A DNA stretch of 64,000 bases from an uncultured Verrucomicrobia subdivision 3 bacterium (GTDB lineage: Bacteria; Verrucomicrobiota; Verrucomicrobiia; Limisphaerales; UBA11358). The DNA is taken from contig CAJAQO010000187.1 of the NCBI GenBank assembly GCA_903944085.1, positions 1 to 64,000 on the forward strand. The letters are read 5' to 3'. The first letter of the stretch is position 1, and each line of letters starts with the position of its first letter. The translations under genes and the position numbers were made by a program. The notes beneath the pieces are model-generated. The model searched no databases and was not told the origin of the DNA. It was given only the letters and a program-made list of their open reading frames with translations. Below are positions 20,608 to 33,699 of this stretch, in pieces.

Positions 20608-21798
20608 ATGTTCATTGACGAAATAAAAATTTACGCCCGCGCCGGTCACGGCGGCAAGGGCAGTGTAGCCTTTCACCGTGAAGCCTTCGTGCCCAAGGGC
20701 GGGCCGAGCGGCGGCAACGGTGGCCGCGGTGCCAGCGTGATTTTGGAGGCCGACCACGACCTGAACAATCTCATTCAGCAGTATTATGTCCCGCGCCTGC
20801 TGGCGCAGGACGGCCAACACGGCATGGGCAAAGGCATGGACGGGCTGGCCGGCAAAGATTTAATCATCAAGGTGCCTTGCGGCACGCTCGTCTGGCGGCT
20901 CAAGGACACCACGCCGCCCATCGAAATCAAAATGAAGAAGGATGATGACGACGAGGATGAGGACGAAAAACCAATGATTGGCAGCGGCATGGGCAGACGG
21001 CCGTTGCTGCGCACATCGCGCGGCCAGACGGCGATGGAAGTTGATTTGAGCGACGAAGGAGCCACGCCGGGCGTCGAAGGCGATGAAACACCGGAAACCC
21101 GCGAACTCGTGGCCGACCTCACCACGCACGGCCAGCAGTTTGTTTTGTGCAAAGGCGGTCGCGGCGGATTGGGCAACCGGAATTTTGCCACCGCGCGCCA
21201 TCAGACGCCGCGATTCGCGCAGCCGGGCGAGCCGGGCACCGAGGGCGAATATCTTTTGGAGCTGCGCATCATGGCTGAAATCGGTTTGGTTGGTTATCCA
21301 AATGCCGGCAAGTCCACTTTGCTCGCGGCGATTTCCAAGGCGCGACCGAAAATTGCCGCGTATCCGTTCACGACGCTCACGCCGCAGATCGGCATTTTGG
21401 AATATGCCGATTGGAAGCGGCTTACCGTCTGCGACGTGCCGGGACTCATCGAAGGCGCGCACAACAACGTCGGCTTGGGCCACGCGTTTCTTCGCCACAT
21501 CAAACGCTGCAAAATTCTCGTGCTGCTGCTCGACATGGCGGGCACTGACGGGCGCGAGCCGTGGGACGATTACAAGCAACTGCTCAAGGAGCTTGAGCTT
21601 TACGATCCGGAACTGCTGGAACGTCCGCGCATCGTCGTCGCCAACAAAATTGACGAAGCCATTGCCGAGGAAAAGCTGAAGCTGTTCAAAAAGAAGATCA
21701 AAAAAGTTTCGCCGCTGGCCATCTCCGCCGCTTTTGGTGAAGGAATGGATAAGTTCAAGCAGACCATCCGCGAGGCGGTCGAGGAAGCGGAGAAATAA
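20608..21798 (+). CDS. obg: GTPase Obg/CgtA with an acidic insert
   Basis: Gly-rich Obg domain GHGGKGSVAFHREAFVPKGGPSGGNGGRG; G1 GYPNAGKSTLL; NKID; unusual MKKDDDDEDEDEKP segment. Confidence 0.95.
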   Translation: MFIDEIKIYARAGHGGKGSVAFHREAFVPKGGPSGGNGGRGASVILEADHDLNNLIQQYYVPRLLAQDGQHGMGKGMDGLAGKDLIIKVPCGTLVWRLKDTTPPIEIKMKKDDDDEDEDEKPMIGSGMGRRPLLRTSRGQTAMEVDLSDEGATPGVEGDETPETRELVADLTTHGQQFVLCKGGRGGLGNRNFATARHQTPRFAQPGEPGTEGEYLLELRIMAEIGLVGYPNAGKSTLLAAISKARPKIAAYPFTTLTPQIGILEYADWKRLTVCDVPGLIEGAHNNVGLGHAFLRHIKRCKILVLLLDMAGTDGREPWDDYKQLLKELELYDPELLERPRIVVANKIDEAIAEEKLKLFKKKIKKVSPLAISAAFGEGMDKFKQTIREAVEEAEK

Positions 21799-21800
21799 TT

Positions 21801-21857
21801 TTGGACTGCGGTGACATGTCACCGCTTTCAAAGCGCCGACTTGTCGGCGCACTCCAA
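21801..21857. repeat. Twin-palindrome element, copy 1
   Basis: TTGGACT-GCGGTGACATGTCACCGC-TTTCAAA-GCGCCGACTTGTCGGCGC-ACTCCAA: two 18-nt palindromic units and near-inverted flanks. Confidence 0.85.
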
Positions 21858-22415
21858 AAATCGCATCACGGTGTCGCCGTGCTTGAGCATTTTGGCCTCC
21901 GTCCACGGCGCGACCAACTCCAGCGTGTCGCGTTTGGTGTGGCCGAGCACAAATCTTCCGCCGGACGCCAGCAGTTTTGGCAAGTTTTTATCGTCGAGCA
22001 ACTGCTGCGCGAAGGAAGTCGAGCGGCGGTTCACATTTTTCTCGCCGTAAGGCGGGTCGGCGAGGATCAAATCAAATTGTTTTCCGCTTTCGGCCAGTTG
22101 ATTCATCACCGGGAAAACATCCTGCGTGCGCACTTCCAGAATTTCTCCGTAGCCGGCCGCAGCGGCGTTGCTGCGGATGAATTCGGCGTGGCGATGCGAC
22201 TTCTCGACGCACATCACGCTCGCGGCGCCACGACTCAAACATTCCAAGCTCAACGCGCCGCTGCCGGCGAACAGCTCCAGCACGCGCGCGTTCACCACGC
22301 GGGCGCCGAGAGAGTTGAAGACCGCCTGCTTGACGAGATCGGGCGTCGGACGGACGTCCAGTCCTTTGGGAACTTTCAGAATCCGCCGGGCCGCGTGGCC
22401 GCCAGTGATGCGCAT
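21828..22415 (-). CDS. rsmD: 16S rRNA (guanine966-N2)-methyltransferase RsmD
   Basis: MRITGGHAARRILKVPKGLDVRPTPDLVKQAVFNSLGARVVNARVLELFAGSGALSLECLSRGAASVMCVEK...DLILADPPYG. Confidence 0.93.
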   Translation of the reverse strand: MRITGGHAARRILKVPKGLDVRPTPDLVKQAVFNSLGARVVNARVLELFAGSGALSLECLSRGAASVMCVEKSHRHAEFIRSNAAAAGYGEILEVRTQDVFPVMNQLAESGKQFDLILADPPYGEKNVNRRSTSFAQQLLDDKNLPKLLASGGRFVLGHTKRDTLELVAPWTEAKMLKHGDTVMRFLECADKSAL

Positions 22416-22421
22416 GAGTTG

Positions 22422-22513
22422 TTAAGCCACAGATTTTCACAGATGAAACACAGATGACAGAAGGAAAAATTGTTTCTCAAATCTGTGTTTCATCTGTGTC
22501 CATCTGTGGCTAA
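22422..22513. repeat. Long inverted repeat of CACAGAT words
   Basis: ttaagccacagattttcacagatgaaacacagat ... atctgtgtttcatctgtgtccatctgtggctaa, arms of 33-34 nt nearly complementary. Confidence 0.85.
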
Positions 22514-29580: not shown

Positions 29581-30783
29581 GTGAGTTTTGTCTCTGAATT
29601 CAATTCGTTGCCGCTGGCTGCGCTCGTCAAGCAATCGCTCGGCACCAGCACCGCCGCTGCGCGCGAGGCCGCCGGCAAAACCAAAATCAATCTCGCCGAT
29701 TTCGCCGCGCTCATTTCGCCGGCGGCTGCGGAAAATCTGGAAGCGATGGGCCAGCGCGCGCATTTGATGACGCAGCAGCGCTTCGGCAAAACCATCCGGC
29801 TGTTCGCGCCGCTCTACCTTTCCAACGAGTGCATCAACAACTGCTCCTACTGCGGCTTCTCGCGCGACAACCCGATTCTGCGCGTGACGCTCTCGCTTGA
29901 CGAAATGCGGCAGGAAGCGCAGGCGCTCAAGGCGCAGGGCTTCCGCAACATTTTGCTCGTGGCGGGCGAACATCCGAAATTTGTTTCCAACGGCTATATG
30001 CGCGACTGCATCGCCGCGCTGCATCCCGACTGGCCGAGCATTTCGCTCGAAGTCGGGCCGATGGAAATCGAGGAATATCGTCCGCTCGTCGCCGCCGGCG
30101 CGGACGGGTTGGTGGTTTATCAGGAAACTTACGACCGCAAAGTTTATGCGGACTTGCACACCGCCGGGCCGAAACGGAATTTCGACTGGCGGCTGGAAAC
30201 GCCCGAGCGCGCCTACGCCGCCGGCTTTCGTCGGCTCGGCATCAGCCCGCTTTACGGTCTCGCCGACTGGCGCTGGGAAGCGTTGAGCGCGGCGGCGCAC
30301 GCGGATTATCTTTTGCGCAACTGCTGGAAAGCGGCGCTGACGATTTCCACCGTGCGGATGCGGCCCTGCGCCGGCGAGTTCGAACCGCTCACGCACATCA
30401 GCGACCGCGAACTGGCACAACTGATTTGCGCCATTCGCCTGATGTTTCCCGATGTCGGCATCGTGCTTTCGACGCGCGAGACGCCGAAGTTGCGCAACGG
30501 TTTGATTCCGCTCGGCGTGACGATGATGAGCGCTGGCGCGCGCACCGAGCCGGGCGGCTACACCGGCGCGGGCAAGGAACGCATCCATCACACCGAGCGC
30601 GGCATCATCAAGGAACTCGTGTCCGGCGCCAGCGAATGGGCACCGCAGACGAATCATCCGACGAACGCCACCGGGCAGTTCAACGTCGGCGATGAACGCC
30701 CGCCGCAGGAAGTCGCAGAATTGATCCGCCAGCTTGGCTACGAGCCGGTGTGGAAGGATTGGGACGCGGCGCTGACGATGTGA
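29581..30783 (+). CDS. thiH: 2-iminoacetate synthase ThiH (radical SAM), GTG start
   Basis: FAPLYLSNECINNCSYCGFSRDNPILRVTLSLDEMRQEAQALKAQGFRNILLVAGEHP; YQETYD...HTAGPKRNFDWRLETPERA. Confidence 0.92.
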   Translation: MSFVSEFNSLPLAALVKQSLGTSTAAAREAAGKTKINLADFAALISPAAAENLEAMGQRAHLMTQQRFGKTIRLFAPLYLSNECINNCSYCGFSRDNPILRVTLSLDEMRQEAQALKAQGFRNILLVAGEHPKFVSNGYMRDCIAALHPDWPSISLEVGPMEIEEYRPLVAAGADGLVVYQETYDRKVYADLHTAGPKRNFDWRLETPERAYAAGFRRLGISPLYGLADWRWEALSAAAHADYLLRNCWKAALTISTVRMRPCAGEFEPLTHISDRELAQLICAIRLMFPDVGIVLSTRETPKLRNGLIPLGVTMMSAGARTEPGGYTGAGKERIHHTERGIIKELVSGASEWAPQTNHPTNATGQFNVGDERPPQEVAELIRQLGYEPVWKDWDAALTM

Positions 30784-30991
30784 AAGAATAATCCCGGAAC
30801 AAATTTCGCCTCGTAAAAATCGCAACCGTAAAATCGGTGCAAATTACTTTTTGACGCCCGCCGCTGTTTTTAGAAAAGTTGCTGCCGCACTCCATGCGGA
30901 ACCGGGGATCAGTCGGAAGTCTTTTGGCAAGCCAGCGTGCGAAAGGTTCGCACCCTGACCGGGGAATTTTTTTACCCCAAACCCGCCGGCT

Positions 30992-31050
30992 TTGGACGGC
31001 GCGGACAGGTCCGCGCTTTGGAACTGGGAGACCTGTCTCCCAGTCGGAAA
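30992..31050. repeat. Twin-palindrome element, copy 2
   Basis: TTGGACG-GCGCGGACAGGTCCGCGC-TTTGGAAC-TGGGAGACCTGTCTCCCA-GTCGGAAAG. Confidence 0.8.
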
Positions 31051-31233
31051 GCGGCGACGTATTGCCCCCGATGGTCTTGATGCAAATCCGCGCGGGGTAG
31101 CCAACCAATGGGCGTCAGTCCGCGCCAGCCGGATATGGGTTTGGAGGTTGTGCGCGTCAAGTTCGGCAAATTGGTTTTTGATAAACGAATCAGAGTGATT
31201 CGTTAACGCCTGTAAACTGTTTAAGAAATCAGT

Positions 31234-33699
31234 TCAGAGCCGGATCACCGTGAACGAATAGGCAGGAAGCGTCACGGTTATTTCACCATCTTTCAAACCG
31301 CTTTTCCATTCGGTCGTCACGGGCTTGACGCAGCCGGGGTTGTCCGCCCGGTTAATCGCCGCCAGCGGTCCCGCCAGCGTCAGCGCTTGCATCTTTGGTC
31401 GGGTTGGCATAAAACCGGAAATTTTCAGCGGCAGTGTGACCGTTTTGTCGCCGAGGTTAAGCACTTGCAACGCCAGCGTTCGGCCGTCTTCGCTCTTCGT
31501 CGCGGTCACATCAATGTCGCGATCCGGGCATTCGCATTTTACCACGAGCGGCTGGTAATCCCGCGCCATCATTTGCGTCACATAGCCCGGTGGTTGGAGC
31601 CAAACTTGCGAAGGATTCAGGAATAGCAATCCCTGATTCCAGCCGTTGTCATTCTGGCCGTCGGGCTGGAGGCAATTCGCGGAACAAGTGATCGGCAGGC
31701 GACCGTCACGCTGAATGGCATTGAGCGCAAGTGCATTGGCCAGGGCACGGCGTTGTGAAGCGTTGTTGGCGTTCAACTCGAACACGAGAACTTTGTGCTT
31801 CGCGCCATCGGCAATTTTATCCATCGCGTCAATATAGGAGAACATTGCCGGCAAGCTGCTGTCCGGGCGCGGTCCATCGGTGCCGACATGCACGTCAAAC
31901 CACACTTCGCGAGCGTGTTGTTTGGCCAGGTCCAGAATTTTCTTCTGGGCTGCGAGCGTGGTAATGCCGCTGTCGGCGCCGGAAAAATTGAACGGCTCCG
32001 TAATAATTTTGTGATACGCAAAATCGCCGACGATTAAAATGATGGCCGGATCTTTCGCCCAAATCACCTCGGCCTGGGCTTGGAATTTTTCAAAGTAGTT
32101 ATCATCCACCCGTTCTTCATTGCCCAGCTCGAGGTATTTCAACCGATACGGCGCCGGATGGCCGTCAGCCGCGCGCCGCGCGCCCCACTTGGTGCCGGGC
32201 GCGGCGGTGAGATAATCCATGAAATCACCCATGTCCTGCGGCGACTCGTTGATATCGAGGTCGGGAATTCCGAGAAAGCCCGCCGCTTCGCAGAAGTTCA
32301 GAAAATCAAAAATGCCCCAGCCGTCCGAAGCATAGGGATACCAGTGACCTTCATAGGGTGGCCGTTGCGCGCGCGGCCCGATCATTTTCTTCCAGCGATA
32401 TTCCGAATTGTTGACCATGCTGCCACCGTAGCGCAGGATGGTCACACCTTGATTGATCAGAGCTTCAGCCACATCCTGGCGCACCGGCAGATTTTTGAAA
32501 CGCCCCCAAGAACCGGGTTGCAGAAAAGCGTAACCCAAAGTAACCGATCCGGCTTGCTTGAGCTTGATGGCAAATCGCCCGGCTTTGTCTGTCGCGTGGG
32601 GACTCAGCTTGAAACCGAGCCGCTGCCAATCGCCCGCTTTGAGTTTCAACGCTTTTTCGGCAAGCACGGAGGAACCATCTTTGCTCTCCAACGCGACGAA
32701 TATTTCCGCAGCCGAGTTAGCGCGGGCCCAGAGATAGCCTTCGTATTCTTTGCCTTTTATAAAGTTCATTCCCCAACGATTCAGACTTTGGTTCTCGATC
32801 CCGATGACGCCTGAACCGCTGGCAAAAGTCATTTGCTGGCTTTGCTGGCCGGAAAACGCGCCTTGCGATTCGAGGGAAAAACTTCCTTTAACCTCACCCT
32901 GCCGGATCGGACGCCACATGCCGCTCACAAAATCGGCGGGATTGCTCTCCGTGTCATACGCAAACGCAATGGGCGGCGGCGACAATTTTGCTTTGATGGA
33001 GAGATTGCGGAACAAAACTTTGTGCTGCCAGATCCGCAACCCCACGGCACCGGATTCAAGCGGATGCTCATGGTCTTCAAATTGCGTCATGCTTTTGCCA
33101 TTCACCAGCACCTCAAACGATTTTGCTTTCAATCGAACGGTCAAAGTAATCCATTCATTCACCGGCACATCGCAAGGCATGCGGCGAATCGGTTCCCAAT
33201 TCTGGCGATGCCGTCCAAGCACAAGAAAACCCGGTCGCTCGAGCGACACTTCGTAGCCGGTGAAAGCATCCGCTCCGTTGCCAGCATCTTTGACCTTGAA
33301 AATTAAACCTCCGTTGCCCCCGGTGGTTTCCGTCAACTTCACATCCGCGCTGACCTCGCCTTCGGAAATTGCCGGACCATCCCGGATGATTTTCGAACCG
33401 CCATCGCCAACTCCTTGGAGGCTATCGTCCTCGCCCAGCGTCCAACGGCCATCGTATGCCGTGAATCCTTTCAAAGGCAGTTGCCCCGCCGGCTCCGCGA
33501 AGCTCTCGCCAAAAATCATCTGGCTGTCAAGGCCGCCATAGATTTCATGGTTCACGTCCTCGAGGCACGCGCCGGTCAAATAGGGAGAATTGGTGTGCAG
33601 CACCTGGTCCGCCTGCACGGTGATGACCGGTTCCTGTGCCGTCGCGATGACTGCCGTCGCGGCTAGTGCCATGAACTGAGAAATGAATTTATGGATCAT
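31234..33699 (-). CDS. GH51 alpha-L-arabinofuranosidase, secreted
   Basis: DVNHEIYGGLDSQMIFGESFAEP; LRYGGSMVNNSEYRWKKMIGPRAQRPPYEGHWYPYASDGWGIFDFLNFCEAAG; KYLELGNEERVDDNYFEKF. Confidence 0.9.
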   Translation of the reverse strand: MIHKFISQFMALAATAVIATAQEPVITVQADQVLHTNSPYLTGACLEDVNHEIYGGLDSQMIFGESFAEPAGQLPLKGFTAYDGRWTLGEDDSLQGVGDGGSKIIRDGPAISEGEVSADVKLTETTGGNGGLIFKVKDAGNGADAFTGYEVSLERPGFLVLGRHRQNWEPIRRMPCDVPVNEWITLTVRLKAKSFEVLVNGKSMTQFEDHEHPLESGAVGLRIWQHKVLFRNLSIKAKLSPPPIAFAYDTESNPADFVSGMWRPIRQGEVKGSFSLESQGAFSGQQSQQMTFASGSGVIGIENQSLNRWGMNFIKGKEYEGYLWARANSAAEIFVALESKDGSSVLAEKALKLKAGDWQRLGFKLSPHATDKAGRFAIKLKQAGSVTLGYAFLQPGSWGRFKNLPVRQDVAEALINQGVTILRYGGSMVNNSEYRWKKMIGPRAQRPPYEGHWYPYASDGWGIFDFLNFCEAAGFLGIPDLDINESPQDMGDFMDYLTAAPGTKWGARRAADGHPAPYRLKYLELGNEERVDDNYFEKFQAQAEVIWAKDPAIILIVGDFAYHKIITEPFNFSGADSGITTLAAQKKILDLAKQHAREVWFDVHVGTDGPRPDSSLPAMFSYIDAMDKIADGAKHKVLVFELNANNASQRRALANALALNAIQRDGRLPITCSANCLQPDGQNDNGWNQGLLFLNPSQVWLQPPGYVTQMMARDYQPLVVKCECPDRDIDVTATKSEDGRTLALQVLNLGDKTVTLPLKISGFMPTRPKMQALTLAGPLAAINRADNPGCVKPVTTEWKSGLKDGEITVTLPAYSFTVIRL

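Follow-up and report, generated by a model that had tools for sequence, protein, structure and literature searches.

A REPIN-like element of Limisphaerales with a GA[GC]T foot, usually three hairpins, and an unusual RAYT lineage as its probable mobiliser

Introduction

Two members of a dispersed palindromic repeat family lie in the 64,000-nucleotide stretch of Limisphaerales DNA analysed here (the window), and this family is very probably a non-autonomous REPIN-like mobile element, mobilised in trans by an unusual lineage of RAYT transposases. Each element would consist of two inverted REP units, formed by a TTTGGAGT tag and a GC-rich 18-nt hairpin with the core GACNNGTC, usually placed around a third hairpin with the same core. 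In the proposed mechanism, a RAYT (TnpA_REP, HUH-Y1 type) supplied in trans would read the GA[GC]T foot together with a hairpin of clade-specific core, cut the element and join it elsewhere, allowing copies to build up between genes. The evidence also leans, with less assurance, towards a further REP superfamily marked by a GA[GC]T foot, a fixed GC-rich base and a clade-specific core, served by an undescribed RAYT subclass in many phyla; in this superfamily the Limisphaerales unit would comprise three hairpins, the outer two of which are kept different, favouring the three-hairpin fold over one long hairpin.

The genome of origin is represented by a Limisphaerales-like assembly of 5.79 Mb in 335 contigs, about 96% complete, and the number of element copies counted in it is a lower bound.

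Element copies in the window

Twin palindromes at 21801-21857 had been reported in the preliminary description, and their coordinates and sequence proved right on re-reading; both are 18 nt long and both carry the GACNNGTC core. A second copy, given as 30992-31050, was correctly located, except that it continues into a decayed third hairpin at 31051 (Table 1). Compared with the longer element to which they belong, the window copies are truncated or degenerate: copy 1 is without the middle hairpin and copy 2 without the end of the third.

Table 1. Features of the two element copies in the window and of the genes beside copy 1.
Feature	Position	Strand	Basis or remark
Element copy 1, 59-bp two-hairpin form	21800..21858	.	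sequence
Left tag TTTGGACT of copy 1; hairpin-foot tetranucleotide GACT	21800..21807	+	sequence, foot statistics
Copy 1 hairpin 1, GCGGTGACATGTCACCGC = GCGGTGAC-AT-GTCACCGC	21808..21825	.	
Copy 1 spacer TTTCAAA	21826-21832		
Copy 1 hairpin 2, GCGCCGACTTGTCGGCGC = GCGCCGAC-TT-GTCGGCGC	21833..21850	.	outer hairpin of the second REP
Right tag ACTCCAAA of copy 1	21851..21858	-	inverse of TTTGGAGT
obgE, left neighbour of copy 1	20608..21798	+	ORF; identity from sequence
rsmD-like methyltransferase ORF	21828..22415	-	ORF and comparison with relatives
Element copy 2, three-hairpin form	30991..31066	.	third hairpin decayed, right tag lost
Copy 2 left tag TTTGGACG	30991-30998		
Copy 2 first hairpin, GCGCGGAC-AG-GTCCGCGC	30999..31016	.	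followed by spacer TTTGGA
Copy 2 central hairpin, ACTGGGAGAC-CT-GTCTCCCAGT	31023..31044	.	followed by spacer CGGAAA
Copy 2 third-hairpin remnant GCGGCGACGTATTGCC	31051..31066	.	GCGGCGACNNGTCGCCGC in intact copies

Copy 1 occupies the gap between the convergent obgE and rsmD-like genes, and the stop codon and last residues of the rsmD-like ORF come from the element itself. The neighbours of copy 2 are a plus-strand radical-SAM ORF (ThiH-like, judged by eye) that ends at 30783 and a minus-strand ORF that ends at 31234. ORFs running through elements occur in the window (21801-22457, plus strand) and in two other stretches (L089 1587-2471, minus strand; L091 3090-3584, plus strand); recurring peptides from such ORFs, for example ECGDMSPLS, are element translations, and their misannotation as proteins is possible.

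Enrichment in the window and the genome

Chance palindromes are ruled out by simulation and by genome-wide counts. The bare GACNNGTC core is not enriched, with 9 sites in the window against 12.4 in shuffles, whereas GACNNGTC palindromes with arms of at least 8 bp number four sites in two close pairs, compared with 0.01 such sites and no pairs per simulated window. The pattern TTTGGAN{3,12}GACNNGTC matched the genome 63 times, against 4 matches for the reversed control pattern, and in nearly all 63 matches the gap is exactly 7 bases; with an 8-base gap, the negative control, a single genome match was obtained. The enrichment of palindrome pairs proposed as a check was thus found, and the refuting possibility that only two copies exist genome-wide fails.

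From this genome 33 copies were extracted (window copy 2, with its decayed third hairpin, was left out), 25 of which are exactly 86 bp long; among the shorter forms, two copies have two hairpins (59 and 60 bp) and three have a single one. The inverted doublet layout originally described stands, while the unit normally holds three palindromes instead of two.

Architecture and covariation

The intact 86-bp unit reads TTTGGAGT-[hairpin]-6 nt-[hairpin]-6 nt-[hairpin]-ACTCCAAA, with GACNNGTC at the centre of every hairpin. In the consensus, TTTGGAGTGCGGCGACACGTCGCCGCTTTCCGACTGGGAGACATGTCTCCCAGTTCCAAAGCGCGGACATGTCCGCGCACTCCAAA, the hairpins are spaced at 26 bp, the same core recurs in all three, and complementary ends close the unit. 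GAGT or GACT stands 5' of the hairpin in nearly all copies of the GACNNGTC-core family.

In an alignment of 47 86-bp copies from this and related genomes, 94.2% of the pair cells in a model of three hairpins and a closing stem are standard pairs, and both sides changed together in 13 pairs and 46 cells, compared with 4.6 and 7.3 in shuffles (none of 500 shuffles was as high). When the partner was slid by 1-3 columns, standard pairs fell to at most 51.5%. The compensated arm variation claimed from two copies is thereby borne out, exceeding both controls. The central hairpin is the most variable of the three, and the closing stem alone has little covariation. A single long hairpin fits less well, pairing 77.9% of cells, because the same two positions set the outer hairpins apart: across the element they mismatch at columns 12/75, 13/74, 22/65 and 23/64 in 45-47 of the 47 copies. 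When single copies were folded as DNA, the minimum-energy form was either the three-hairpin or the long-hairpin one.

As in REPs, palindromes of about 20-50 nt are present in many extragenic copies, and, as in REPINs, two inverted REPs have the potential to form a hairpin, according to alignment and fold counts. A REPIN in which a spacer alone separates the two REPs matches the 59-60 bp copies, including window copy 1, but not most copies, which hold a third co-varying hairpin. Rfam gave no above-threshold match for the intact element or for either window copy.

An alternative outer-hairpin core, GGCNNGAC (reverse GTCNNGCC), occurs in L109, L111, L169 and other loci. In it the loop-adjacent A-T pair is replaced by G and A, and beside clade-1 RAYTs it is often found in one outer hairpin of the pair.

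Genomic placement and insertion

Gene calls from a simple codon-usage caller place 22 of the 33 copies between called genes and 7 at contig edges, while 4 overlap the upstream end of an ORF, at which the start is uncertain. Called coding sequence makes up 87% of the window, yet none of the 33 lies within a gene body. Convergent-gene gaps hold 7 of the 33, as they do both window copies, and tandem or divergent gene pairs flank 15 of the 22 classifiable copies.

Such placement bears on the alternative that the elements are immobile, host-selected bidirectional terminators or mRNA-stabilising hairpins at gene ends. The elements are indeed extragenic, some copies do sit between convergent genes, and the hairpins are stable with compensated arms. 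This alternative is nevertheless improbable: the hairpins have no U-run 3' of them, most classifiable copies lie in tandem or divergent gaps, the near-fixed 86-bp layout and fixed outer tags would be superfluous for termination, the element is patchy within its genus, and it stands on both sides of RAYT genes. For a mobile REPIN-like element, a terminator role might have been gained after insertion, and any possible terminator or protein-binding role would be secondary.

Comparison of loci is consistent with mobility. No element is present in the rsmD-obgE gap of any fetched relative locus, although RsmD is up to 93% identical and the genes are likewise convergent; among the loci examined, this gap contains the element in the genome under study alone. 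In the same genome an element lies 3' of the upp stop codon and is absent from all other upp loci examined. Insertion would be the simpler reading of presence and absence at both sites. At rsmD, TTTTTGGAG or a near match is already present in relatives at the place where the element starts. A fixed insertion target was considered; the upp junction has no match of the rsmD kind, and a target rule is not established. A DDE-type MITE was discarded, since direct repeats of at least 5 nt, as target duplication would leave, flank 2 of 78 copies, one of them an odd 19-bp repeat. The latter, AATCAATTCAGTTCAACGC, flanks the copy at L042 2797-2882, unlike other copies. Flank symmetry, considered as a sign that the element extends further, is modest (6.41 versus 5.52 matches of 20) and confined to a subset of copies. 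A second dispersed repeat, approximately GGTGCTGTCCTAATCTTAATCYTGTTCTTAATCGTAATC, lies beside copies in L002, L004, L029 and L033 of the genome under study, and copies in L015 and L090 have the similar GGCAGYGTCCTAA or GGCAGYGGCTTAA on both flanks.

One pair of contigs carries different forms at the same place between common flanks: a one-hairpin form in G000:C192 (L035 2882-2915) and a three-hairpin form in G000:C328 (L051 88-173). Their left flanks are identical at 87 of 87 positions, and the C192 form is a perfect palindrome, with no counterpart of the mismatch present in C328. The difference could be strain variation, an excision footprint or an assembly effect, which weakens it as a trace of mobilisation by a RAYT. 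The perfect palindrome, which gives the impression that one arm served as template for the other, speaks for another alternative, namely that arm covariation comes from template-switch (quasi-palindrome) correction in replication and that the elements are otherwise inert relics. As the whole explanation this is highly unlikely, leaving the occurrence at new sites in the genome, the constancy of the tags, the link with RAYTs and the persistent difference of the outer hairpins at the same two positions unexplained; template-switch correction may act in addition to mobilisation.

Distribution in the order

Of 320 genomes of the order, 56 contain the pattern TGGAGTGCGNNGACNNGTC, with a maximum of 359 matches in one genome and a reversed control near zero. 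Within the genus the distribution is patchy (14 of 49 genomes). A RAYT homologue (E 1e-20 or better) was found in 78 of 313 genomes of the order, and 19 of the 28 genomes with at least 5 element matches have a RAYT, compared with 60 of the 292 others (Fisher p 5e-7, with kinship ignored). In a collection of viral contigs, four (L371-L374) contain the half-site TTTGGAGTGCGNNGACNNGTC.

The RAYT transposase beside the element

In two relatives the element clusters around one ORF. The RAYT ORFs of five relatives (G005, G043, G038, G132 and G263) are 77-100% identical and have matching inverted element copies on both sides. Two of these relatives belong to other families of the order; because the element flanks close RAYT homologues across families, the sequences suggest that the RAYT and its element spread together horizontally.

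The G005 protein scores 83.8 bits against NCBIfam NF047646 (REP_Tyr_transpos; cut-off 80), and all 8 aligned family members match that model. The ORF also reaches the Pfam Y1_Tnp cut-off, and a match of E 7e-9 links the family profile to the solved structure of E. coli TnpA_REP (4er8), the alignment covering the HUH and tyrosine regions. NHYH and Y---N[PA] motifs are present in nearly all of 144 RAYTs. The HUH motif, the Y---NP tyrosine and the curated family match place these proteins among the RAYTs.

The RAYT link suggested at the outset is supported in close relatives; in the genome under study no cognate RAYT was found (best match 31%), which counts against mobilisation by a RAYT. Six Y1 genes of this genome were rejected as the cognate RAYT, the stretches fetched around them having palindromes of other kinds or none and no element palindromes. 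Y1 genes at G000:C163, C37, C239 and C52 (L055, L057, L059 and L060) lie among different palindrome families (CCTGGGG/CCCCAGG, CCGGGG/CCCCGG and CACGGGCG/CGCCCGTG), which are probably further repeat systems. Contig ends fall within 1 kb of 15 of the 33 copies (hand-counted from coordinates), against about 4 expected. Since copies cluster at contig ends and the assembly is about 96% complete, the cognate RAYT may have dropped out between near-identical copies in assembly; loss from the genome is equally possible. Other species are reported to have lost the RAYT while keeping the repeats (PMC3733652). A RAYT was presumably once present in the lineage of this genome, and proximity, specificity and analogy suggest that it is the RAYT that moves the element.

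Foot, core and RAYT clade across phyla

Wider sampling comprised 159 RAYT loci from coded genomes and named records, whose organisms partly overlap, and 144 loci after removal of identical proteins. Tagged hairpins were found within 450 bp at 124 of the 159 loci, compared with 3 of 113 control stretches, and in both orientations at 102 of the 159. Beside RAYTs that are about 50% identical stand sister elements with the same GGA[GC]T-GC base and other cores, such as AGTCCTCT or GGCTTGAC. When the four bases 5' of every palindrome were counted without bias, GA[GC]T was the foot at 84 of the 144 loci and GT[AG]G at 2; the foot that defines REPs, GTAG/GT[AG]G or CGTC, is thus not the one carried here. 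The assignment to REP/REPIN-type elements, made in the preliminary description, accordingly survives for dispersed extragenic inverted doublets and not for the tag. Record titles place RAYTs of the group that has tagged hairpins in Planctomycetota, Acidobacteriota, Chloroflexota, Pseudomonadota, Chlamydiota and others; these labels come mostly from metagenome bins and may singly be wrong.

On the RAYT tree, a quick one with many weak branches, core classes (assigned by majority, with the 50 of 144 loci that have no classifiable core excluded) require 18 changes, compared with 47.6 with shuffled labels, and the GYCCYC core class requires 2 versus 23. RAYT clade and hairpin core are associated, which is not a dated co-divergence. 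The core described as fixed is so within the family, where every hairpin has GACNNGTC, and differs by RAYT clade in sister elements.

These results weigh on a further alternative, in which the GACNNGTC dyad is a double-stranded binding site for a protein, a regulator or nucleoid protein, with arms free to vary. One core common to three hairpins with different arms is what such a site would produce. The arms, however, co-vary as pairs and do not vary freely, the core on its own is no commoner in the window than in shuffles, and sister elements retain the GA[GC]T foot and GC base while the core shifts with RAYT clade, as expected if the RAYT reads the core; there is very little probability left for this alternative.

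Comparison with known systems

REPs, REPINs and RAYTs are well known (PMC2817692, PMC3116915, PMC3733652, PMC6006769, PMC8266576), and RAYT-REP co-evolution has been reported in Stenotrophomonas (PMC2817692). In the available parts of these papers GT[AG]G and CGTC are the tags described, class 3 having CnGA; the GA[GC]T tag was not found there. Open-access full texts yielded no report of the element sequence as a repeat; an earlier description elsewhere is possible.

REPINs are REP doublets that form hairpins (Bertels and Rainey 2011, PMC3116915). The element resembles them in its inverted REP pair, short spacer, extragenic position, compensated arms, clustering at a RAYT gene and neighbouring near-identical copies (L089, L091). 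It differs in the independent third hairpin that usually lies between the REPs, in the GA[GC]T foot, and in outer hairpins that differ at two fixed positions, because of which three local hairpins pair better than one long hairpin. The GTAG- and CGTC-tagged REPs and TIRYT elements (Di Nocera et al. 2013, PMC3733652) are similarly many-copy, tagged GC-rich palindromes with flanked RAYT genes; the element has neither tag and is without the GGGGWSAS motif of TIRYT repeats.

With the TnpA_REP/RAYT subclasses (Quentin et al. 2018, PMC6006769) and E. coli 4ER8, the transposases share the HUH-Y1 type, a length of about 176-190 aa, NHYH and a motif of the Y---NP type. Subclass 2.8 (NHYH, W[YH], YIHYNP) has the nearest listed signature, compared by description alone; it is reported only from Cyanobacteria with GT[AG]G REPs, whereas the RAYTs described here have NHYH with Y[VT]HxN[PA] and GA[GC]T feet, and occur in Verrucomicrobiota as well as, judging by record titles, about a dozen further phyla. 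Subterminal hairpins of IS200/IS605 share the HUH-Y1 enzyme family and a 5' foot that carries a short guide sequence; the element, by contrast, is geneless and has two inverted ends and a middle hairpin.

By analogy with these systems, the element would best be called REPIN-like in function and served by a true RAYT, standing outside the strict GTAG/CGTC definition of REPs by its tag. Against the literature available, the GA[GC]T tag and the usual third central hairpin look new, and the family looks like an undescribed branch of known bacterial mobile DNA.

Significance

How RAYTs read REPs is an open question, and it is mostly GTAG-tagged systems of Proteobacteria that have been studied. The RAYT-repeat pairs described here form a broad set: they share a foot that differs from GTAG (GA[GC]T), and what varies with the transposase clade is the core alone. 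From the combination of a constant foot and a clade-specific core it can be predicted directly which residues of the protein recognise the foot and which the core. Recurring dispersed palindromes of Verrucomicrobiota genomes are, in turn, accounted for by this class of elements.
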